Of a stretch of 64,000 nt of DNA, positions 41,609 to 57,507 are shown in pieces. The position numbers and the translations under genes were made by a program. The DNA lies in assembly GCA_001311565.1 (NCBI GenBank), contig BBBM01000006.1, positions 1 through 64,000 of the forward strand, written 5' to 3'. This stretch comes from Desulfothermus okinawensis JCM 13304. Its GTDB lineage: Bacteria; Desulfobacterota; Desulfovibrionia; Desulfovibrionales; Desulfothermaceae. The notes under the pieces are model-generated. The model searched no databases, had not been told where the DNA came from, and was given only the letters and a program-made list of their open reading frames with translations. Position 1 is the stretch's first letter; every line of letters begins with the position of its first letter.

Positions 41609-43546
41609 ATGGGTAAGCTTTTTTTTGAGGGATTACAAAAAGATGTGGGAGTACGCAAAGAATGATCCCGAAGGATTTTGGAATGAGGCTGCTGTATGGT
41701 GTATGAACAATATTCACTGGTTTAAACCCTGGGAAAAGACCTTTGATTGGGATTATCCCACATTCAAGTGGTTTGTGGGTGGAACCACCAACATCTGTTA
41801 CAACTGTCTGGATTACAAAATCCTAAAAGGCTTGGGGATAAACCTGCCTTTATTGAGATCAGTGGTGAGAGGGGCGAAGAGAGGACATTAACCTATAGGG
41901 AAGTTTTGACGTTAGTGGAAAAGTACGCAGCTTCCCTAAGGGGTCTTGGGGTTGAAAAGGGCGATAGGGTAATGCTCTATATGCCCATGTCTGCTGATGC
42001 TGCAGCTGTTATGCTTGCCTGTGCCAGGATTGGTGCCATCCATGTTGCAGTATTTGCTGGCTTTTCCTCAAAGGCAATTGCAGATAGGATTGATTTAACA
42101 AAACCAAAGGTTGCAATTATCCAGGATATAGGCTCTAGGGCTGGGAAAATGGTGTCCCTAAAGGATATGTTTGATAAGGGCCTTGAGATGGCAGATTATA
42201 AGGTTGGTACAGTGGCGGTGTTTTCCAGGGAAGGATACAAGGTAGGTGAATATTCTGTTAACATGGAAAAGGGAAGGGATATTACCTGGGATGAGTTTTT
42301 AAACGCTGGAGAAGGGCAAGATGGTGGATATGTAGAGCTTGAAGCCAACGAACCACTGTTCATCCTCCCAACATCAGGAACCACAAAAAAACCAAAACCA
42401 ACTGTGCAGAGACATGGTGGGTATCAGATTTATATATACTGTATGGGTCAGTGGATATATGGAAGAAAACCTGAAGATATGTGGTTCTGTACATCAGACA
42501 TAGGATGGATAGTTGGACACAGCTACAATGTGTATGAGCCACTTTTAGGCGGGTGCACATCTATCCTCTATGAAGGTACTCCTAATTATCCAGAAAAGGA
42601 TATGTGGTGGGCAATTATTGAAAAACACAAGGCAACTGGATGGTGGATTTCCCCAACAGGTGCAAGGGCACTTCTCATGCTTGGAATTGAACAGGCAGAA
42701 AAACACGACCTATCTTCCTTAGAAAGGGTATTTAGTGCAGGGGAAGTTCTAAATCCACCTGTATGGGAATGGCTGCAGAAAAAGGTCTTCAAAGATAGAA
42801 TACCTGTAATCGACCATATGTGGCAAACAGAATCATCTGGACCACTATTTGCAAATCCCTATGGACTTGAGCTCTTTCCAATCAAACCAGGATCCGCAAC
42901 ATATCCTGTTCCTGGTATTGTACCAGAGGTTGTTGATGAACTAACAGGAAGGTCTCTTTTGCCTGGTGAAAAGGGAACAATGATAATTAAAAGACCTTGG
43001 CCAGGTCTAACAGCAACACTTTATGAGAATCCTGAACAATATAGGGAAGAATACTGGGAAAACACTTTGGCTACAACGGGTGCTTATTATTGTGGTGATG
43101 CAGCAACAATAGATGAAGATGGATATGTCTGGTTCTCTGGTCGTGCAGATGAGGTAATAAAGATATCAGACCATAGAATAGGAACAATAGAGGTTGAAAG
43201 CGCACTTGTAAATCATCCAGCAGTTGGTGAGGCAGCTGTAGTTGGTGTTCCCGATGAGCTAAGGGGTCAAATATGCCTTGGACTTGTGGTTCTAAAATCT
43301 GGATATGAGCCGTCAGAGGAACTGGAAAAAGAACTAATTAGTTATGTGAGAAACGCACTGGGTCCAATTGTTGTATTTAAGGGAATTGAATTTGTTGAGA
43401 TGCTTCCAAAGACAAGAAGTGGTAAGATCATGAGAAGGGTACTTAAAAAGGTGTGGAGCAATGAAGATATAGGTGATATCTCCACAATAGAAGAAGAGGC
43501 ATCTGTGGAAGAGGTAAAAGAGGCTCTGTCTAAATTAGGTAAATAA
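41609..43546 (+). CDS. Acetyl/propionyl-CoA synthetase (AMP-forming)
   Basis: The protein has about 646 aa. An ANL-family enzyme: P-loop FILPTSGTTKKPKPTVQRHG, CTSDIGWIVGHSYNVYEPLL, MWQTESSGPLF, YYCGDAATIDEDGYVWFSGR and the C-terminal catalytic Lys in LPKTRSGKIMRRVLKK. It activates a short-chain acid, probably acetate or propionate, given its place at the end of the methylmalonyl-CoA cluster. The N-terminus MGKLFLRDYKKMWEYAKNDP is rejoined by shortening a T7/T8 near 41620; a base is missing near 41842 (GGGGAT) too. GGAGGGG precedes the start; a strong terminator follows. Confidence 0.92.
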
Positions 43547-43698: not shown

Positions 43699-45061
43699 AT
43701 GAGCAAATTTATTCAAAGATTAGAATTAAATAGGCAAGATGTTTATAAAGATGCAAAAATAGCAGAATATGGCAAGAGGGAAGTTGATTTTAAAGGGATG
43801 GGAAAGGTCAAGAAAAAAATTGAGACATAAAGCAAGAGAGGTTGTTTGTGTTGAGGCATGCAGGACACCCTTTGGAAGATTTGGTGGAAAATTAAAACAA
43901 TATGATGCCCCTCAGTTAGGTGCATTGGCAATAAAGGAAGTTTTGAGGAGAGTATCAGAAAAGGTAAAAGCAGAAGACATTGATTATGTGGTATTGGGAC
44001 AGGTTGTTCCTGCAGGTTGTGGTCAGGTCCCTGCCAGGCAGGCAGCAATTTTAGGTGGTCTTCCTGAATATGTGCCTGCTATTTCAATAAACAAGGTCTG
44101 TTCTTCAGGGATCAAGGCAATTGATTTAGGTGTGCAGTTAATTCAAACAGGTCGTGCTGAGATAGTAATTGCTGGTGGAATGGAATCCATGTCAAATTGT
44201 CCATTTGCTCTAAGGGGTATGAGGTGGGGGCAGAGAATGGCCCTTCCAAATTCAGATGCTTTAGACCTTATGGTCTATGATGGTTTGTGGGATCCATTTT
44301 ATAATAGGCACATGGCCATTCATGGTTCTGAGACAAGTGATGAATTTGGATTTACCAGACAGGATAATGATGAGTGGGCCTATCGTTCCCAGATGACTGC
44401 AAAAAGTGCAATGGAAGAGGGTAGGCTTGATGACGAGCTGTTTGGTGTGGAAGTTAAGGTTGGAAAAAATTTAGAGGTATTTGATACAGATGAGCAGCCA
44501 AGGCCAAATACTACCCTGGAGACCCTGGCAAAGTTGCCCCCAGTATTTAACCACAAAAGCACAGTAACTGGCGAGCCTGGTTCAATTACAGCAGGTAATG
44601 CCCCTGGAATAAATGATGGGGCAGGTGTTTGTATGTTAATGAGCAGGGAGATGGCAGAAGAGCTGGGATTTAAGATACTCTTTACCATATTGGATTATGC
44701 AGAGGTTTCTCAAGCAACCAAGGACATTGCCCTTGTCCCTGGGTTGTCCATTAAAAAGGTTTTGGATCAAAATGATATGGACATTAAAGATATTGATTTA
44801 ATAGAGATAAATGAGGCCTTTGCAGCGGTCACACTTATTAGTGGAAGGAAGGTACTTGGTTTATCCAAAGAAGAGATGGACAAAAAGGTAAATGTAAATG
44901 GAGGTGCCATTGCCTACGGCCATCCAATTGGTGCAACAGGGGCAAGGATAGCCATGACCCTTGCATATGAACTTAGAAGAAGGGGAGGGGGAATTGGTGT
45001 TTGTGGTATTTGCTCTGGTCTTGCCCAGGGAGATGCAATGTTAATTAAAGTGGATGGTTAA
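43699..45061 (+). CDS. Acetyl-CoA acetyltransferase (thiolase)
   Basis: The protein has about 453 aa. Catalytic Cys in INKVCSSGIKAIDLG, NVNGGAIAYGHPIGATGARI with the His, and the second Cys in GICSGLAQGDAML mark a biosynthetic-type thiolase that joins or splits acetyl-CoA/acetoacetyl-CoA. An A7 near 43815 is one too long; repair connects an N-terminal part starting MSKFIQRLELNRQDVYK, about 44 residues longer than usual thiolases, before AREVVCVEACRTPFGRFGG. GGAGAAC precedes this start. It begins the operon with 3-hydroxybutyryl-CoA dehydrogenase and the second B12 mutase. Confidence 0.92.
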
Positions 45062-45096: not shown

Positions 45097-45949
45097 ATGG
45101 ATATAAAAAAAAGTAATGGTAATTGGTGCAGGTCAAATGGGTAATGGCATAGCACAGGTAGCTGCTCAGGCTGGATATGACGTTGTTTTAAATGATATAA
45201 CAATGGAGCTAGCTGAAAAGGGACTGAATAATATAAAGAAGATTTTGAGCAAAAATGTCTCCAAGGGAAAGATAAGTGAGGAGGAAAAAGAAAGTATTTT
45301 ATCTCGTATTACCCTGTCAGATAATCTAGATCCTGCCAGGGAATGCGACCTCATTATTGAAGCAGTTGTGGAGAACATGGATATTAAAGCCAAAGTGTTT
45401 TCAGAACTAGACAAACTTGCACCATCTCATGCAATTTTGGCAACAAACACTTCTTCTTTACCAATTACCCAGATAGGTGCATGTACAAATAGGCCTGAAA
45501 AGGTAATTGGAATGCATTTTATGAATCCTGTTCCAGTTATGAAGTTGGTAGAGGTGATAAATGGATTAGAGACAGCCCCAGAAGTTACAGAGACCATTAA
45601 ACAGGTGTCTGAGAAAATGGGCAAGGTCCCAGTTGAGTGTAGAGATGTGCCTGGCTTTGTATCAAATAGGGTGCTCATGGTGATGATAAATGAGGCAATA
45701 TGGGAGCTTTATGAAGGTGTTGCAACAAAAGAGGGCATAGACAATATTATGAAATTGGGTATGAATCACCCAATGGGACCACTTGCCTTGGCTGATTTAA
45801 TTGGTCTTGATACTGTTTTGGCAATATTAAATGTACTTGTGGAAGGTTATGGGGATCCAAAATACAGGCCATGTCCCCTCTTAAAATCATATGTTGCAGC
45901 TGGTAGATTGGGTAGAAAGACTGGTAAGGGATTTTACGATTACAATTAG
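45097..45949 (+). CDS. hbd: 3-hydroxybutyryl-CoA dehydrogenase
   Basis: The protein has 284 aa. [20 protein letters not shown] binds NAD(H); the catalytic Ser-His-Glu-Asn set is in [21 protein letters not shown] and [25 protein letters not shown] and a [12 protein letters not shown] end complete the family. It interconverts acetoacetyl-CoA and (S)-3-hydroxybutyryl-CoA. An A8 at 45106-45113 near the start is one too long. GGAGG precedes it. It works with the upstream thiolase in butyryl-CoA formation or breakdown. Confidence 0.94.
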
Positions 45950-46004
45950 AAATTTTTTTGTTTTTATCTACTATTTTTTTAGATAAATTTGAGGGGTGAT
46001 CCTT

Positions 46005-47699
46005 ATGTTAAAATATTTTGCACAGGAGCTTTTAGATAAATGCTCTTCTCTGAGAAAAAAAATGGGAAGATGAAGTAAAAAAAATTAATTGAAAAAAAAG
46101 CCTGAGAGAATGCAGAGGTTTTCAACTGTTTCTGACCATGAGATAAAGAGGCTTTATACACCTGAAGATATAAAAGACTTGGACTTTGAAAAGGATATTG
46201 GTTTCCCTGGCCAGTATCCCTATACCAGGGGAATCCATCATACTGGATATAGGGGCAGGGTTTGGACCTATAGGATGTTTTCAGGACTTGGAACAGCCAA
46301 GGACACCAATGAGAGATGGCACCTCCTTTTAAAAGAAGGACAAACTGGACTCAGTACTGCCTTTGATTTCCCAACCCTTATGGGATATGATTCTGATAGT
46401 CCTAGGTCTGCTGGAGAAATAGGAAAGGTTGGTGTAGCAATTGATACTTTAGAAGATTTTTTTAGTACTGGTAGATGGTATTCCCCTAGGGGAAGTGACC
46501 ACATCTATGACCATCAATCCACCTGCCACGGTTATGTGGTCCATGTACATTGCATGTGCCAAAAAAACAGGGAGTACCCATAGAGAAAATAGGCGGTACC
46601 ATACAAAATGATATGTTAAAGGAGTTTATTGCCCAGAAGACCTTTATGCTTCCACCTGAACCATCTATGAAGCTAATTAGTGATACTGTTGAATTTGGGA
46701 CAAAGTATGTGCTAGGTGGAACACAATTTCTATCTCAGGCTATCATATTAGAGAAGCAGGTTCTACTGCTGTCCAGGAACTTGCCTTTACTTTGAGGGAT
46801 GGAATGGAATATGTGGAACATGTTATGAAGACTAAAAAGCTGGAGCCAGATGAATTTGCCCCAAGGCTTTCATTTTTCTTTAACTCCCACATAGATTTTT
46901 TTTGAAGAGATCTGCAAGATGAGGGCTGCAAGGAAGATCTGGGCACACGTTATGAGGTACAGGTATAAGGCAAAGAATCCAAGGTCCTGGTGGATGAGAT
47001 TCCATACACAGACAGCGGGATGTTCTTTAACTGCACAACAGCCATATAACAATGTTGTGAGGACGGCTGTAGAGGCCCTGGCGGCGGTACTTGGTGGGAC
47101 CCAGTCCCTACACACAAATTCTCTAGATGAGGTATATTGTTTGCCAACTGAACATGCAGTACAGATAGCCCTCAGGACCCAACAGATAATTGCTGAAGAG
47201 ACAGGTGTTGCAAATACCATTGATCCTCTGGCAGGTTCTTATTTTGTGGAAAAATTAACCAAAGAGATGGAAGAGGCTGCCTGGGAATATATTGAGAAAA
47301 TAGACAATATGGGTGGAATGCTGGCTGCTATTGACCAGGGATATCCTCAAATGGAGATTGCAAATGCAGCGTATAAGTTTCAGCAACAGGTAGAAAATGG
47401 TGAAAAGGTAATTGTTGGTGTAAATAAATATGTCACAGAGGAACTCCAAAAGATACCAATCCTGGAGATCGATGAAAGGGTTGAGAAGGAGCAACTTAAG
47501 AGATTGGAAGAAGTTAAGAGGAGAAGGGATAATAAGGCGGTGAAAAAGGCATTGGATAACTTGAGAAATGCCTGTAAAAAAAGCTGAGAATGTAATGCCT
47601 TATTGTATTGAGGCTGTGGAGGCCTTGGCTACAGAACAGGAGATATGTGACGTATACCGTGAAGTATATGGAGTGTATAGGGATCCTGGATATTTTTAA
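46005..47699 (+). CDS. icmA: Isobutyryl-CoA mutase-type catalytic subunit
   Basis: The protein has about 563 aa and belongs to the same family as the methylmalonyl-CoA mutase in this window. Family motifs are [39 protein letters not shown] and [15 protein letters not shown]. The specificity residues differ: Phe replaces Tyr (WTYRMFSG, codon 46278) and Gln replaces Arg ([10 protein letters not shown], codon 46634). Phe plus Gln is the pair known from isobutyryl-CoA mutase, which has no carboxylate to bind. The Asp typical of 2-hydroxyisobutyryl-CoA mutase is an Ala here ([10 protein letters not shown]). About six indels were corrected (46056, 46076, 46456, 46560, 46722, 46898, 47576). Confidence 0.82.
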
Positions 47700-47722: not shown

Positions 47723-48137
47723 ATGGCAAAAAGAAAATTGCGTATAATGGTAGCAAAGCCAGGATTGGATGGACATGATAGGGGGGCTAGGATCCTGGCA
47801 AGGTTTTTTAGGGATTCTGGGTATGAGGTGATTTATACTGGGTGTCACCAGACGCCTGAACAGATTGTAGAAGCGGCAATTCAAGAGGATGTAGATCTAA
47901 TTGGGCTTAGCTGTTTATCAGGGGCTCATAAAAAGCTTTTTCCAGAAGTTGTTGATTTGCTTAAGGAAAAAGGAGCTGATGATATTGTTGTGATAGGTGG
48001 TGGCATTATACCTGAACAGGATTTTCAATACTTATATGATCATGGAATTAAGGCGGTTTTTACTCCAGGAACTCCACTAGAGGATATAAAAAAAGTGGAT
48101 AGATGAAAATGTAAAAGTAAAGGAAGATCTCCTGTAA
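47723..48137 (+). CDS. icmB: B12-binding small subunit of the isobutyryl-CoA mutase
   Basis: The protein has about 137 aa. [12 protein letters not shown] carries the cobalt-binding His, followed by GLSCLSGAHKKL and [15 protein letters not shown]. An A7 at 48088-48094 is one too long; the repaired end is DIKKWIDENVKVKEDLL, with a stop at 48137. It begins 23 bases after the catalytic subunit gene and resembles the first small subunit strongly, so the two probably arose by duplication. Confidence 0.85.
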
Positions 48138-48183: not shown

Positions 48184-49177
48184 ATGGATCAGCAGAAGCT
48201 AGAGGAAATTTTAAATCGTATAAGAAAGGGGGATGTGAGGGTAGTCTCTCGGCTCATTAGAAATTTAGAGGATAGGATTCCAGAGGCCAAAGAGGTCATT
48301 AAATACATATATCCTTATACAGGTAAGGCGCGTGTAATTGGCATCACAGGGCCCCGGGAGCAGGTAAGTCTACAATTACAGATTTTTTGATAAGCTCATA
48401 CAGAAAACAAGAAAAAAAGTGTAGGGGTTTTGGCAGTTGATCCAACTTCTCCATTTACAGGTGGAGCACTTTTAGGTGATCGGGTGAGGATGCAAAATCA
48501 TGCTGGGGATAAGGGTGTATTCATCAGGAGTTTGGCTACAAGGGGAGCCTTAGGTGGTCTTTCTGCTGCAGTTGAAGATGCCATACATGTTTTAGATGTA
48601 ATGGGTAAAGACATAATAATTGTTGAAACAGTGGGAACTGGTCAGTCGGAAGTGGATATTATGAATAATGCGCATACAATATTAGTTGTTCTAACTCCAG
48701 GAATGGGGGATGATGTTCAGACAATTAAAGCTGGCATTATGGAGATAGCGGATATATTTGTAATAAACAAAGGTGATCAGCCAAATGCAAGGAAACTATA
48801 CATGGACCTTATGCGTGCCTTGGATATGATGCAGGAATTTCCAGGTGGATGGCGACCTCCCATTGTTAAGTTAGAGACCACTGCAGATCCAATAAAATAC
48901 GCAGAACAGGTGGATGTTTTAAGGGAAAAAAATAGATGAGCACTTAAAGTTTTTAGAGGACAAAGATATACTTAAGGAAAGAGAAATAAGGAAGGCCAAG
49001 GTACAGCTTTTAAATGCCCTTGAATCACAGATCCTTCTCCCAATAATAGAGACGTTGCAAAAAAATGGGAAAATGGATGATATGGTAGATAAAATAGCTA
49101 AAAAGAAGATAAGTGCATATGAATTTGCAGAAGAGATAAAAAAATGTTTTCTTAAGAGAGTAAAAATTAGAAATTAG
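48184..49177 (+). CDS. Second MeaB-type G-protein chaperone
   Basis: The protein has about 330 aa. The P-loop is broken by a missing C near 48353; with it the frame reads GITGPPGAGKSTITD. LAVDPTSPFTGGALLGDRVR, IVETVGTGQSEVDI and VINKGD follow. It probably loads and protects the cofactor of the adjacent mutase. The C-terminal part is longer than in the first copy and helical. The start at 48184 is close to GGAAGG. A/T-run shifts near 48414 and 48927 were corrected. Confidence 0.88.
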
Positions 49178-49290
49178 TATTGCATTTTTTTGTTAAACAA
49201 TGTTTATATTTAGATGACAAAGTTATAGTGTTACAGTTTGGTAAAAGTGAAATATAAAGTTTAAATTAAAAAACAAAAGGAGTGGGATGT

Positions 49291-51062
49291 ATGGCAATGC
49301 AAGACTATTACAAGAAAGTTATGGAAATTAACCAAATGGCAGACCTTGATGCAAGGGACAAGGCAGCCAAGGCATTTTTTGATGATTTAAATAAGTCCCA
49401 GCTGCCAGAATATTTTAACTGGGCTGAAGAGATCTTTGAGGGACTGCATGTAAAAGAGAGGGGAGAACAAGACGCACTCATATGGGTAAATCTAGAGACT
49501 GGTGAAGACAAGAAATTTACTTACTTAGAACTAGCTGCAAATGGTAATAAGGTGCTAAATCTTTTAAGAAAAAAACGGTGTTAATCAGGGCGACAATATG
49601 TATATGATGATCCCCATTGTCCCTGAGACCTGGTTTGCGTCCTTTGCATGTCTAAAAGGCGGACTTGTTATTGTTCCCACTGCCACTACAATGACTGCTA
49701 GGGAACTTGAATTTAGGTTTGAGACCTATCCACCGGATGTAATTGTCGCAGATGAAGCATCTGCAGCAATAATGGACGAGACATTAAAGGCAACAGGCAA
49801 GGAACCCAAAGTTAAGTTGGTAATTGGTCAAAGGGATGGATGGATCCCTTATAGTGAGGTTGAGAAGGAATCTGGTGAGGCTGAAGGCGCAAAAATAAAG
49901 AAAGATGACATCCTGTTCTGCTTCTTTACCTCAGGTACCACAGGCCTTCCAAAAAGAGTTGGACATTCAGCCACCTCATATCCTGTTGGGCATCTGTCCA
50001 CCTCAGTTATGATTGGAGTTGCACCTGGTGATATCCACCACAACTTATCTGCACCTGGATGGGCAAAATGGGCATGGAGTAGCTTTTTTTGCACCACTAA
50101 ATGTTGGTGCAACTGCAACGGGATTTTTCTTTAAGGCACTGGATGGAAACAAGTATCTTGAGGCCATTTCAAAGTACAAGGTGAATATTTTCTGCGCTCC
50201 ACCAACTGCATGGAGGATGTTTATTAATTTGGATCTAGGCAAGTTTGATTTTTCAGCGCTTAAATACTCTGTAAGTGCTGGTGAGCCTCTAAATCCTGAA
50301 GTAATAAATCAGTGGAAAAAAATACACAAATACAGAAATTAGAGACTTCTACGGCCAGACAGAATCAACTGCAATGATTGGGAATGGGCCATGGATGGAA
50401 GGCAAGATGAGATTTGGTTCTTTTGGAAGGCCATCTTATATGTATGATATTGTCTTGGTTGACGATGAGGGAAATGAAGTGACAAAGCCCAATGAAACTG
50501 GCCATATTTGCGTGAGATTGAAAAATTGGCGGGCAATTGGTTTGTTCACAGAATATATTGGCAACCCAGAGAAGATGAGGGAGGTATTTGTTGGGGATTA
50601 CTACTATACTGGTGATAGGGCATACTTTGACGAGGATAATTACTGGTGGTTTGTGGGAAGGGCTGATGATGTAATTAAGTCCTCTGACTACCGTGTTGGC
50701 CCATTTGAAGTTGAAAGTGCCTTGTTGAACATGCAGCAGTTGCCGAGGCCGCAGTGGTCGGTTCCCCAGATCCACATAGATATCAGTTGGTAAAGGCCTT
50801 TGTAATCTTAAATGAGGGTTACACTCCTTCCAAAGAACTTGCCCTTGAGCTCTTTAAACATACTATTGATGTTCTGGCCAAATTTAAGATTCCAAGAATT
50901 ATACAATTTGTAAATGAGTTGCCAAAGACCATTAGTGGTAAGATCAGAAGGATCGAACTCAGGGAACAGGAAATAAAGAAAAAGGAACAGGGGATTGAAA
51001 GGGGCGAAAACGAGTATTTCTACTGGGACTTTCCAGAGCTTAGCTCAAGAGGTAAAAAATAA
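49291..51062 (+). CDS. Acyl-CoA synthetase (medium/short-chain, AMP-forming)
   Basis: The protein has about 590 aa and is only distantly related to the acyl-CoA synthetase at 41609. CFFTSGTTGLPKRVGHSA is the P-loop; IRDFYGQTESTAMIGN, YYYTGDRAYFDEDNYWWFVG and the Lys in LPKTISGKIRRIELR complete the ANL pattern. Its likely job is to activate butyrate, isobutyrate or a similar acid for the mutase module; the exact substrate is not readable. Shifts near 49569, 50085, 50321 and a missing base pair near 50731 were corrected. GGAG lies eight bases before ATG 49291. Confidence 0.88.
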
Positions 51063-51068
51063 ATTCAT

Positions 51069-51131
51069 GGGGCATAAATTTGCCCCCTTTTTTTGTATTG
51101 TTAATTTTTTTAAAGGCATTTTGCCTTTAAA
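51069..51131 (+). terminator. Two hairpins after the acyl-CoA synthetase
   Basis: GGGGCA (51069-51074) pairs with TGCCCC (51081-51086) and is followed by a T-run, a standard terminator. A second hairpin (TTTAAAGGCA-TTT-TGCCTTTAAA, 51109-51131) lies just behind it and before the membrane protein gene. Confidence 0.75.
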
Positions 51132-51211
51132 GGGGTGTATTATACACCAATTTAAGGTAGGGGGAGATGAAAATTTTAACGATCAAAATCAAAAGGAGAG
51201 GTGTATGGCTC

Positions 51212-52416
51212 ATGGAACTCTTAAGCCAGGTGGGGGCAGCCTTAACGGGTATTATTGCTTTTATTTGTTTCTTTTTAATTGCGTGGCTTACGTGGTTTAT
51301 TTTCAGTGATCCAAGGGGAATTTTTAAATGGTTTCCCTATCCATTTGTAATGTATCTTGCCATGATGATTTTGGTGGGTCTATGGCAACACATGTTTTTA
51401 GGGGACTGGCCCTTTCAAAATTTGAAACAGCCAGTAAAAGGTATTGTAATGACCATTGCCAACATTGTGTTGGTGTGGTTTGTTATAGACATTATTTTTT
51501 TACCGGGTGCTGGGAATTGGATTTAATTTCCTGAGTTATTATAAATTAGCAGCACTGGGAAAACCTGGAAAATTGGCACAAGTGGCAGTTGTGTGTTTTG
51601 TTTTAATAGGGTTTTACACATATCCAGTTGTCACCATATTTTTTTGGAAAGTGGCCAATCCAGCCAAGTAATCTAAAACAACCAGAGGCTGGTCTTGCAG
51701 AGATTGGGTGGGCCTCACTTATTACTTTGTTCTTTTATACAATATTGATAGTGCCATTTTTTGGGCTCATCTTTAAAACTCCTGCCCTTGCCACTCCCTG
51801 GTGGACAAAAATAGCAGGGACTCCCCATGTCCACTGGGTGTTTGGATGGTGGGAATGGGCGATTATTATTTTGTTTTTGACACCTAATGTATGGCGGATG
51901 AAGCCCTGGAGTGCTATGGAAGTACCTCAGCCGTGGAAGGGATTAATATCTATGGCCCTGTCCTTTATAGGGGCTTATATTCTTGCAATCATTTGCACCA
52001 AGATTGCTTACTTATGGGTCCCTGAAGAGACATTTCACCACCTTAAAGAGGCAAAAGGGGCAGCAGAAGTAACCAGGTTCTTATGGTTGCATTCTGCAGA
52101 AATTGCAGGCTTTACCCTTATTCCATTTTTGATATGGCACCACTATTTTGATGATATGTGCCCAATGAGGGATGTGGATAGCTGGGGTGCCTTTTTCTTT
52201 AGAACCATTGGAGTTTTTGTTCTTTGCGCCATTAATTACTGGTTCTTCTATTATGCGAATTTTGGACACTGGGGCCTTGGAAATCATCATATGAGCGAGC
52301 TCTCCCACAGGTTTCCACATGGTGAATCTTTACTATGGAACTTCTGGTGGATTATTCCACTCCTCTGGAATGAGTGGTTCTTTCATAAATGGCCCTTTTA
52401 TGTGGCTGAAGAATAG
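51212..52416 (+). CDS. Trp-rich polytopic membrane protein, family not recognised
   Basis: Shortening a T7 at about 51494-51500 to T6 joins two pieces into one protein of about 400 aa with nine or ten hydrophobic helices. Related short motifs recur three times: GDWPFQNLKQPVKG, GKWPIQPSNLKQPEAG and MEVPQPWKGL, each before a helix, which suggests internal duplication. Conserved-looking His/Trp clusters (HVHWVFGWWEW, IWHHYFDD, FGHWGLGNHHMS) might bind metal or haem. The start at 51212 is the best in-frame choice but its ribosome site is distant. Co-orientation with the acyl-CoA synthetase suggests transport or electron transfer linked to acid use; this is a guess. Confidence 0.7.
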
Positions 52417-52424
52417 AAAAAAAA

Positions 52425-52447
52425 GGGGCCAAAAGGCCCCTTTTTTT
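52425..52447 (+). terminator. Bidirectional terminator after the membrane protein gene
   Basis: GGGGCC-AAAA-GGCCCC preceded by A8 and followed by T7, so it works in both directions between converging genes. Confidence 0.85.
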
Positions 52448-54662: not shown

Positions 54663-55964
54663 TTATTTTACCATATCAGGCAAAAATAGACTTATTTTTG
54701 GAAATGCTATTATTATCCCTGTGCCTACAATTAAAGCCAACAAAAAGGTATAATTCCAGCAAATACTTCTTCTAATTTAATGTGAGGAGATAGACCTTTT
54801 ACAATATAGGCGTTTACCCCAACTGGTGGAGTTATTATACCCATTTGGGTGATGAGTACAATAATTACTCCAAACCATATGGGATCATATCCCAGGTTTA
54901 TAATTATTGGAAAAAATATTGGAATAGTAAGGGTAACCAGGGCAAGTGCATCGATAAAACACCCTGCAACAAGGTATATCAAGCATATCATACTCACAAT
55001 TCCCCATGCAGGTAGATTAAGGGAATTTACAAAATTCGCCATTTCCATTGATATTCTGGATAAAGCGAGAAAGTGGCCAAATATTGTTGCACCAGCAACT
55101 AGCATGATCACCATACAGGAGACATTTAGGGTATCATTTACGGCCTTTACAAAGTTTTTCCATGAGAGTTTTTTTCTGTATAACCACGATAACTAAAAGT
55201 AAAAATGATCCCACAGCCCCAGCCCTGGTTGGTGTGAAGAGTCCAAAAAAACATCCCTCCCATAACTAGGGAAAATATAAGCATGGTTTCCCAAACATCT
55301 TTTATTGATTTTATTTTTTCTTTTATGGGAAATTTTTCTCCCCTGGGGGATTGGGAAGGGGATAGGATGGAGTAAAAGTAGATGGCAATGCAAAATAGAA
55401 TAGTTATCAAAATTGCTGGAATAATGCCTGCCAGAAATAATTTTCCTATGGATACCTGGGTGAGAATGCCATATATAATAAACACCACACTTGGCGGCAT
55501 CAAGATCCCAAGCCCTGAGCCAGCGGCAACTGAACCTGCAGAGATTTTGTTTCCATATCCGTAACGCTTCATCTCTGGGATTGCAATGGACAATGGTTGC
55601 AGCAGTAGCAGTGGTAGATCCACAAACCGCCCCAAATGCAGTGCATGCAACAATAGTGCCCATGGCAAGTCCACCCCTTACACCGCTTGTTAGTTTATAT
55701 GCCATGTCATATAATCTCTGACTAACACCAGCATAAAAGGCAATAAATCCCATAAAGATGAAAAGTGGAACAAGGGCAAGTCCATATGAAGAGAATACCC
55801 CGTAAAGGTCCCGTGATAAGAGGTTTAATGCTGCTGCAGGTGAAGTTAATATACCGTAACCTACAACCCCTACTAAGGCAAGGGCATATGCAACTGGGAT
55901 CTGAAGAAAAAAAAAGTATGAGAAGGATGATGATTCCTAAAATGCCACATGTCACAAAGTCCAT
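54663..55964 (-). CDS. dctM: TRAP transporter large permease (DctM type)
   Basis: The protein has about 433 aa with about 12 hydrophobic helices. GLAMGTIVACTAFGAVCGST, GSGLGILMPPSVVFIIYG and IGMITPPVGVNAY-like MGIITPPVGVNAYIVKG are DctM signatures. It is the main sodium-driven channel for an organic acid. Shifts near 55909, 55591, 55252, 55170 and a missing base near 54745 were corrected. Its ATG overlaps the dctQ stop, so the two are coupled. Confidence 0.9.
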
Positions 55965-56453
55965 TATTTTTTCCTCAAACTGGTGTGGATTTCAACTCCG
56001 ATTTCACTTAATATTACCAAAAATAATACTCCGCACCCAAGGGATACCCCATACAACAACAGGTACTTTGGAATCTGGAGGGTGGAAGTGACTTCTCCTG
56101 CTACCTTTAAGTCCTTTGCATAGTTAAAGCACTCTATTGTAGCGGACAAAAATAAGATTCCACTGAGTATAGATACAAATATGTCATCAAATTTTTTTAA
56201 AACCAGGTCCCATTCGTCTATACAGGATATCAATCCCAATGTGTGCCTTGTTTTTGTGGGCAATTGGGAGTACAAAGGCAATAGTAATAGATGCAAGCAC
56301 ACTCACCAGCTCTTCTACTCCCAATATTGGATGCCCAAAAAAATTTCCAATAACATCTGCGCAGGTTATAGACATAATAAATACCAGTAAGACTCCTGCA
56401 ACTATTCTGAGAAAAGAAGATATTTTGTCCACAAAAGTTATAAACTTGTTCAT
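55964..56453 (-). CDS. dctQ: TRAP transporter small permease (DctQ type)
   Basis: The protein has about 163 aa with four predicted helices, including FLRIVAGVLLVFIMSITCADV and LVSVLASITIAFVLPIAHKN. The HKNKAHIGIDIL segment is typical of DctQ. A run near 56190-56196 (T7) is one too long; six joins GPGFKK to FDDIFVSILSG. It couples the permease with the binding protein. It lies 51 bases after dctP. Confidence 0.88.
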
Positions 56454-56504
56454 CCTCTGATTAATCCATATACTTAGACTTAAATTGTCCCTTTTTGTAT
56501 TGTT

Positions 56505-57507
56505 TTAATGCCTTTTTTTTAAATATTCAATTACCTTGTCTCCAGGTAACCCTTTTTTTCTTGGTCATATTAATATATGTATCAAATACCCCTTTGACCC
56601 TTCTAGCCCATCTGTCTGCTTCTTGTTCTCCTATTCCAATAATCGTATTTCCATGGGCAAGGGTATATCTTATTCCCTCAAAGTCACTATTATCCCATGC
56701 CTTTCCATGTTTTTTTCGCCCACTTAATGTCTATTTGGTCAATTATCTTTTTGTATTTATCAGGGAGTGAGTTCCATTTTTTCTTGTTCATAACAACGAA
56801 AAATCCAACAGAATATGCAATCTTATAATTGGCTATAGTATATTTTGTAACCTCTGCCATTTTCCAGCCTTTGTTAGTCTCTATGGGATATGTTGCTCCT
56901 TCAACTACCCCTTTTTGGAGTGCCTGATACACCTCAGGCATTGGCATGGCAACTGGAATTGCCCCAAGTGCCTTTAAAGTGTCTGCAACTGAACCTGGAC
57001 ACCTGATCTTTAGGCCTTTTAGGTCCTTTAATTTGTATACTGGCTTTTTTTTGAGGTGGATAAAACCAGGGCCATGTGCATGGAGGTATAAGACCTTTAC
57101 CTGGGACAGTTCCTTTGGTTTAAATTTTGTGTAGACTTCATTGATTATGGCAGTTGCAAATTCTCCGCTGGGGTTTCCAAATGGTAGATTTATAAAATCC
57201 ATCAGAGGAAACCTGCCTCTGGTATATAAAAGACAGGACATACCTATGTCAGACATTCCAGATATGACCCCATCATAACATTGGGCTGCCTTGGTTAGAG
57301 TCTGGCCTGGATAAAAATATATTTTAACATTACCATGGGTCCTTTTTTTCCACCTCCTTGCACCACGCCTCGGCCAATTTGCTTTGGATGTGAGTTGGAG
57401 GGAAAAAGCTGCTATAGGTAAATTGAAATTTTTTTTGGCAAAAACATGTGCAGAAAAAAAAACAAAAAATAATACTTAATGAAATTATAGACACTTTTTT
57501 TAACCAT
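56505..57507 (-). CDS. dctP: TRAP transporter solute-binding protein (DctP type)
   Basis: The protein has about 332 aa. Residues 1-28 form a signal peptide (Lys-rich start, hydrophobic core, AHVFA cleavage site). The mature part has QSKLAEAWCKEVEKRT, YFYPGQTLTKAAQCYDGV, and the binding-site Arg in LKGLKIRCPGSVADTLKALG. It captures an organic acid, perhaps a C4-dicarboxylate or another carboxylate, in the periplasm. The start at 57507 follows AGGGGG. Frames near 56711, 57041, 57349 and 57440 were corrected. Confidence 0.9.

Follow-up and report, generated by a model that had tools for sequence, protein, structure and literature searches.

The window analysed here, a stretch of 64,000 nucleotides of the Desulfothermus okinawensis JCM 13304 genome (contig BBBM01000006.1), carries the gene of a ten-helix membrane protein downstream of genes for acyl-CoA synthetases, a thiolase, a 3-hydroxybutyryl-CoA dehydrogenase and a B12-dependent mutase (Table 1). 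The initial annotation had described a Trp- and His-rich membrane protein at 51212-52416. The protein was borne out at about 51,205-52,416 of the + strand, its 403-aa orthologue containing 31 W and 14 H; the window copy, however, is spread over more than one reading frame (open pieces at 51,212-51,526, approximately 51,516-51,640, and 51,628-52,416), and the gene start is better placed at 51,205 than at 51,212. The intact orthologue was found in one genome of the same genus (Desulfohalobiaceae MAG T11, where L002 and L086 denote one contig), and two of the three other genomes of the genus that were searched returned no match, indicating a patchy distribution of the gene.

Table 1. Positions of the membrane protein gene, its repeat units, neighbouring genes and terminator-like sites in the window.
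Feature	Position	Strand	Basis
Second AMP-binding acyl-CoA synthetase, open frame	41747..43546	+	Sequence cluster
Thiolase	43769..45061	+	Thiolase_N/C found on relative L094:11209-12696
3-hydroxybutyryl-CoA dehydrogenase	45116..45949	+	Sequence cluster; its class has 3HCDH domains in neighbour scan
B12-dependent acyl-CoA mutase large subunit, frame-broken	46003..47699	+	Homologue in orthologous locus
Mutase B12-binding small subunit	47723..48106	+	Sequence
MeaB-type GTPase, open piece of frame-broken gene	48430..48939	+	Sequence
AMP-forming acyl-CoA synthetase (AMP ligase), frame-broken	49282..51062	+	Best NCBIfam match of orthologue is MbcS, below cut-off
Terminator-like hairpin (51,069-51,086) and T run, in gap between AMP ligase and membrane gene	51069..51095	+	Structure scan and folding
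Ten-helix membrane protein gene	51205..52416	+	Orthologue L002/L086 (one contig), 85% identity over the long open piece
Repeat unit 1: W-GQPLTG, helices 1-2, DWPF	51226..51420	+	Orthologue residues 8-72, mapped within 2 bases
Repeat unit 2: LKQPxKG, helices 3-4, KWPV	51421..51672	+	Orthologue residues 73-156
Repeat unit 3: LKQPEAG, helices 5-6 with HVHWVFGWWEW, KPW	51673..51921	+	Orthologue residues 157-239
Repeat unit 4: QPWKG, helices 7-8 with H296xxE299 and WHHYFDD	51922..52176	+	Orthologue residues 240-324
Repeat unit 5: degenerate DSWGA, helices 9-10, HKWPF	52177..52413	+	Orthologue residues 325-403
Terminator-like hairpin 3' of membrane gene	52418..52447		Scan listed - strand; folded on + strand

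Alignment to the orthologue revealed four single-base frame differences in the window gene, which cancel, so that the two genes are equal in length. Next to it, the genes for the mutase and the AMP ligase are likewise frame-broken relative to the orthologous locus, mostly through extra bases in homopolymer runs (between 46003 and 51062, single-base changes that are mostly surplus bases in A or T runs), and 41,873-43,546 aligns to the same locus without a single indel. The window genome is 43.76% complete, compared with 95% for the sister genome. Given that the neighbours are also broken, mostly in homopolymers, and that the window genome is so incomplete, an assembly error is the likelier cause of the frame breaks than a pseudogene, and the breaks look like systematic homopolymer error of this assembly.

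The earlier claim that the gene ends the operon held in part: a terminator-like site follows it, but another lies between it and the AMP ligase. The membrane gene may accordingly have its own transcription, apart from the AMP ligase, and the 3' hairpin may serve either strand. A hairpin resembling the upstream one occurs at the corresponding place in the orthologous locus. Two strong hairpins were detected in the gap as a whole (51060-51160, z -4.18), the second without a T run, making an attenuator possible. Beyond the gene, on the - strand (54731-57256), frame-broken open pieces look by eye like those of a TRAP-type transporter, with its binding protein and two membrane components. The mutase of the orthologous locus (L086:4757-6445, corresponding to window 46003-47699) reads TGY and PSMK where that at L107 reads TMY and PSLR, places that we take to be specificity sites for methylmalonyl- versus isobutyryl-CoA; judging by these residues, the window mutase may act on an unusual substrate.

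The initial annotation recognised no known family in the membrane protein, a view borne out for Pfam, NCBIfam, PHROGs and PDB sequences. No curated Pfam or NCBIfam cut-off was reached by the protein or its relatives, and single-sequence searches found no match to either among PDB sequences and no relatives among PHROGs, viral contigs or plasmids. Sub-cut-off Pfam lines (GPDPase_memb, VIT1, DUF6097, DUF1761, Ureide_permease and Abhydrolase_9_N) were rejected as noise, because all were below cut-off and mutually discordant. Profile comparison with two E. coli membrane proteins gave no significant match either, with E 0.83 for the short-chain fatty acid transporter AtoE (hhalign, 118-row family profile against the single AtoE sequence) and E 0.26 and 0.31 for the Escherichia coli protein YhiM.

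Scanning a genome collection of 84,980 species yielded 89 loci of the window type, of which 80 were kept; their titles all name Desulfobacterota-type organisms, 'Deltaproteobacteria', 'Proteobacteria', 'Myxococcota' or unassigned MAGs, and cultured carriers include Desulfobulbus elongatus, Desulfacinum hydrothermale, Desulfocicer vacuolatum and Desulfoprunum benzoelyticum. The family is a large one in its phylum: a profile search detected relatives in 76 of 297 sampled genomes of the class and in 34 of 395 of the phylum. Identity over the full length was about 25% between the window type and relatives outside it. The window-type alignment holds 75 proteins from the 80 loci (31 clusters at 80% identity), with L160, L161, L164 and L165 (partial or broken) and L126 (unknown bases) left out, and a wide profile of 118 rows combines these 75 with 43 others. 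In a tree of 25 of the 75 window-type rows (every third) and all 43 others, the window subfamily formed a single clade, separated from the rest by a branch supported at 100/100. Neither the family nor its five-repeat plan or short-chain-acid operon setting appears to be described in the literature and libraries searched, which is not proof that they are unpublished.

Hydropathy and two AlphaFold2 models (pLDDT 87.3 and 81.9; pTM 0.86 and 0.79, for the first and second model, respectively) agree on ten membrane helices, close to the number initially suggested. The NLKQP/QPWKG motifs ahead of helices and the HxH/HH pairs (HVH and HH) were confirmed as well; instead of three related motifs, the protein has five tandem two-helix units that follow the plan [QPxxG - helix - loop - helix - WPF] five times. 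With the window-type profile, 5 of the 10 unit pairs outscored every one of 200 controls with shuffled columns, and with the wide profile all 10 pairs were in register and above the 95% level, 5 of them exceeding the maximum of 300 shuffled controls. Since shuffled columns do not preserve hydrophobic periodicity, the register is the stronger argument for the repeat; an off-register comparison again picked up the in-register motif and is not an independent control.

Conservation alternates along the protein. Mean entropy in window-type proteins was 0.31, 0.73, 0.33, 0.65 and 0.14 for helices 2, 4, 6, 8 and 10, as opposed to 1.01, 0.85, 0.99, 1.43 and 1.11 for helices 1, 3, 5, 7 and 9, such that every even helix is more conserved than any odd helix. 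The wide family likewise has lower entropy in even than in odd helices, save that helix 3 (1.53) is marginally below helix 4 (1.55). Such a pattern is what an arrangement of five helices inside and five outside would produce. Five histidines are invariant in the 75 window-type proteins (H63, H208, H296, H312 and H313, orthologue numbering) and three more are at least 90% conserved (H210, H362 and H394), whereas H296 is the sole invariant histidine of the wide alignment, in which R333 is nearly invariant. H296xxE299 in helix 8 is the only histidine motif retained throughout the wide family. Under the positive-inside rule, charge is near balance between the two sides in the window type and more positive on the WPF side in other subfamilies, and we tentatively assign the WPF side to the cytoplasm.

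In structural comparison, Foldseek found no PDB match at E 0.001 for either model (best E 0.17 and 0.14) and no match in BFVD. The top VIA-align result for the first model was 8QKD (Z 8.4, rmsd 6.2, 232 residues; next row Z 4.7), a Z of about 8 being of a size that can reflect the common arrangement of helical proteins. For the second model 8QKD was not listed, perhaps being absent from the 1000 chains compared, so nothing is settled by this. Rows for GPCR, MATE and other proteins reached a Z of only about 3 to 5 and were disregarded. The 8QKD structure, sc-CC-5, is a designed single-chain barrel with five inner helices; it is soluble, unlike the membrane proteins of the family. Each model has short strands at its two termini (in the first, residues 6-8 and 399-401), which may pair and so shut a putative ring.

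Tandem two-helix units around a central path are also the architecture of the mitochondrial carrier family, which has three units as against five here; solved mitochondrial carriers were presumably among the PDB sequences searched without a match. Another parallel in plan is YhiM (DUF2776, PF10951), which, like the family, has ten predicted membrane domains and five tandem two-helix units. The units are evident by sequence (L206:2842-3894), with unit scores of 29 to 83, of which 7 out of 10 exceed the highest control score (46). PMC6604978 reports involvement of YhiM in GABA export, and PMC11005409 links it to copper and gives ten predicted membrane domains. According to PMC11288890, the paper on 8QKD, the AlphaFold model of YhiM has five central helices and is the natural model most like designed single-chain barrels. 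The suggested YhiM substrate has four carbons. No significant profile match joins YhiM to the family (unit profiles gave E 0.18) and the motifs differ; PF10951, which YhiM itself matches at 1.1e-158, was not matched up to E 1 by the L002 protein and three distant relatives. On this sequence evidence, YhiM is of the same plan and not of the same family. It is conceivable, although we hold the idea only tentatively, that the family forms a natural single-chain membrane barrel of five hairpins in a closed ring, its conserved inner helices providing the path for a C3-C5 fatty acid; YhiM would then share this plan while being unrelated or only very remotely related.

The genomic company of the gene is that of short-chain-acid degradation. 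In the 62 window-type loci at least 9 kb long (all such loci among the 80, with near copies kept), an activating enzyme was encoded within 10 kb of the gene in 42/62, compared with 1/20 control stretches, all drawn at regular intervals, and not at random, from only two genomes. An AMP ligase was present in 22/62 loci (controls 1/20), a type I CoA-transferase in 13/62 (0/20) and a type III CoA-transferase in 12/62 (0/20). Genes for B12 mutase (29/62 versus 0/20), acyl-CoA dehydrogenase (24/62 versus 3/20), thiolase (21/62 versus 1/20), 3-hydroxybutyryl-CoA dehydrogenase (12/62 versus 1/20) and crotonase (17/62 versus 2/20) were nearby as well. Overall, any pathway class was found in 49/62 loci versus 4/20 controls and at least three classes in 23/62 versus 1/20; no class was nearby in 13/62 loci, among them that of the cultured Desulforhopalus singaporensis (L101). 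AtoC-like sigma-54 regulator genes (10/62 versus 2/20) were not used as evidence.

The association extends to gene order. Where 1.5 kb was available on each side (61 loci), the activating enzyme was the next same-strand gene, at less than 500 bp, in 25/61 loci and divergent within 1 kb in 6/61; counted by 80%-identity clusters, it was a same-strand neighbour in 11 of the 28 testable clusters and divergent in 3 more. Four loci (L120, L132, L150 and L165) share the order membrane gene, CoA-transferase A and B, acyl-CoA dehydrogenase, thiolase, 3-hydroxybutyryl-CoA dehydrogenase and crotonase, which resembles atoD-A-E-B of E. coli. In Syntrophaceae-type loci the membrane gene stands first in a butyrate beta-oxidation operon, and Desulfobulbus-type loci run thiolase, membrane gene, acyl-CoA dehydrogenase, then CoA-transferase. 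A Pfam scan of 93 of the 105 nearest proteins from 21 dereplicated loci (proteins longer than about 700 aa dropped) had AMP-binding (9), CoA_trans (7), thiolase (5), mutase (4) and acyl-CoA dehydrogenase (4) near the top of its list, and the 25 most frequent families included none of transporters. Relatives of E. coli AtoE were near the family in 0/62 loci, and the E. coli AtoD and AtoA references likewise matched in 0/62, which indicates that the CoA-transferases near the family belong to another type I branch. As a separate observation, the butyrate-type operons of one lineage contain a creatinase/M24 peptidase-like gene whose role is not evident (L094:13509-14849, L117:13592-14797, L130, L135, L138 and L145), and a few of these, such as L135, also contain a DUF6125-type gene.

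Other subfamilies (L166-L185 and L082-L085) keep different company, their operon encoding a metallo-beta-lactamase and a CobW/G3E GTPase instead. This conserved cassette comprises the ten-helix protein, a Tat-type metallo-beta-lactamase, the CobW/G3E GTPase, which has a long additional N-terminal part, and, in part of the loci, a GntR-like regulator (the Tat and GntR labels being read by eye). At L082, a gene that reads by eye like 3-hydroxybutyrate dehydrogenase adjoins the cassette. A short-chain-acid carrier does not by itself explain this company; in these subfamilies a carrier could serve an acid freed by the hydrolase, and a metal-related role is also possible.

On balance, we consider it most likely, with moderate confidence, that the protein belongs to a new family of importers for C3-C5 short-chain monocarboxylic acids (propionate, butyrate, isobutyrate). 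Three unrelated activating enzymes (AMP ligase, type I and type III CoA-transferase) replace one another while the membrane gene stays, which points to a step before activation, that is, entry of the acid. The place of the gene beside CoA-transferase and thiolase is that of AtoE in the E. coli ato operon, where CoA-transferase, AtoE and thiolase are consecutive (atoD-A-E-B), although no sequence relation between the two proteins was found. The short-chain-acid carrier proposed as one option in the initial annotation gains support from the conserved context and the AtoE-like operon place, from which we infer transport itself. Also in favour of an importer are the absence of AtoE relatives and of transporter families from the commonest neighbours, the five units in register, the conserved even helices and the five-unit plan of YhiM. 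Against it count the 13/62 loci with no pathway class nearby, the different company of the other subfamilies and the patchy occurrence of the gene within its genus. In the proposed mechanism, a C3-C5 acid would enter through the ten-helix inner-membrane protein, the neighbouring AMP ligase or CoA-transferase would make its CoA thioester, and the thioesters would pass to the B12 mutase and the beta-oxidation enzymes. The five conserved helices would line a central path that carries the acid, probably inwards, with H296xxE299 in helix 8 and R333 in helix 9 as candidates for proton coupling or carboxylate binding.

A protein that exported the acetate of beta-oxidation with protons, exchanged acetate for the incoming acid or moved something else of the same pathway should have these same gene neighbours, and YhiM, the only protein of the same plan found with a transport report, is implicated in export. 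However, the adjacent same-strand gene activates the incoming acid in the 25/61 loci described above, and many acetate-making pathways presumably operate without this gene, and we regard this alternative as a whole as unlikely. A role in metal-ion handling, or as a membrane metalloprotein with the conserved His/Asp clusters as ligands of Zn, Cu or Fe, would fit the five invariant window-type histidines, the metallo-beta-lactamase and CobW/G3E GTPase (a metallochaperone family) adjoining other subfamilies, and the copper link of YhiM in PMC11005409. Yet the wider family keeps H296 alone invariant and no metal genes are among the commonest window-type neighbours, and this role appears somewhat less likely still.

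The initial annotation also raised a membrane electron-transfer partner of the butyryl-CoA module. Taken as a protein with a haem or quinone site that serves the acyl-CoA dehydrogenase, this idea was not supported. Abundant Trp and His and the nearby acyl-CoA dehydrogenase genes in 24/62 loci are in its favour, but ETF and ETF-oxidoreductase genes, gauged with E. coli references only, were not enriched (FixA 2/62 versus 1/20, FixB 1/62 versus 0/20, FixC 0/62 versus 0/20), and no sequence likeness to a solved cytochrome or quinone enzyme was found. A conserved histidine pair is absent across the family, a single family-wide invariant histidine (H296) being too few for a conserved bis-His haem, and we consider electron transfer improbable. 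Least probable of all is a sensor or scaffold for the acyl-CoA enzymes that moves no cargo. Such a protein would suit a conserved partner whose activity has so far been deduced from its setting, but it is at odds with ten membrane helices, the lack of a soluble domain besides loops, and the strong conservation of the even helices within the protein.

In anoxic sediments and digesters, sulfate reducers and syntrophs that oxidise propionate and butyrate provide a main route for carbon. How the acids enter the organisms that oxidise them is a question to which the literature searched, including passages of PMC5017805, gave no answer, and the importer reading makes the membrane gene a direct candidate for this entry that is present in cultured species. 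If the barrel proposal is true as well, the family would be one of transporters with a fold unlike that of solved transporters, and would represent a main entry of propionate, butyrate and isobutyrate in Desulfobacterota. A five-hairpin membrane protein of this kind would also tie a natural fold to the designed five-helix barrels.
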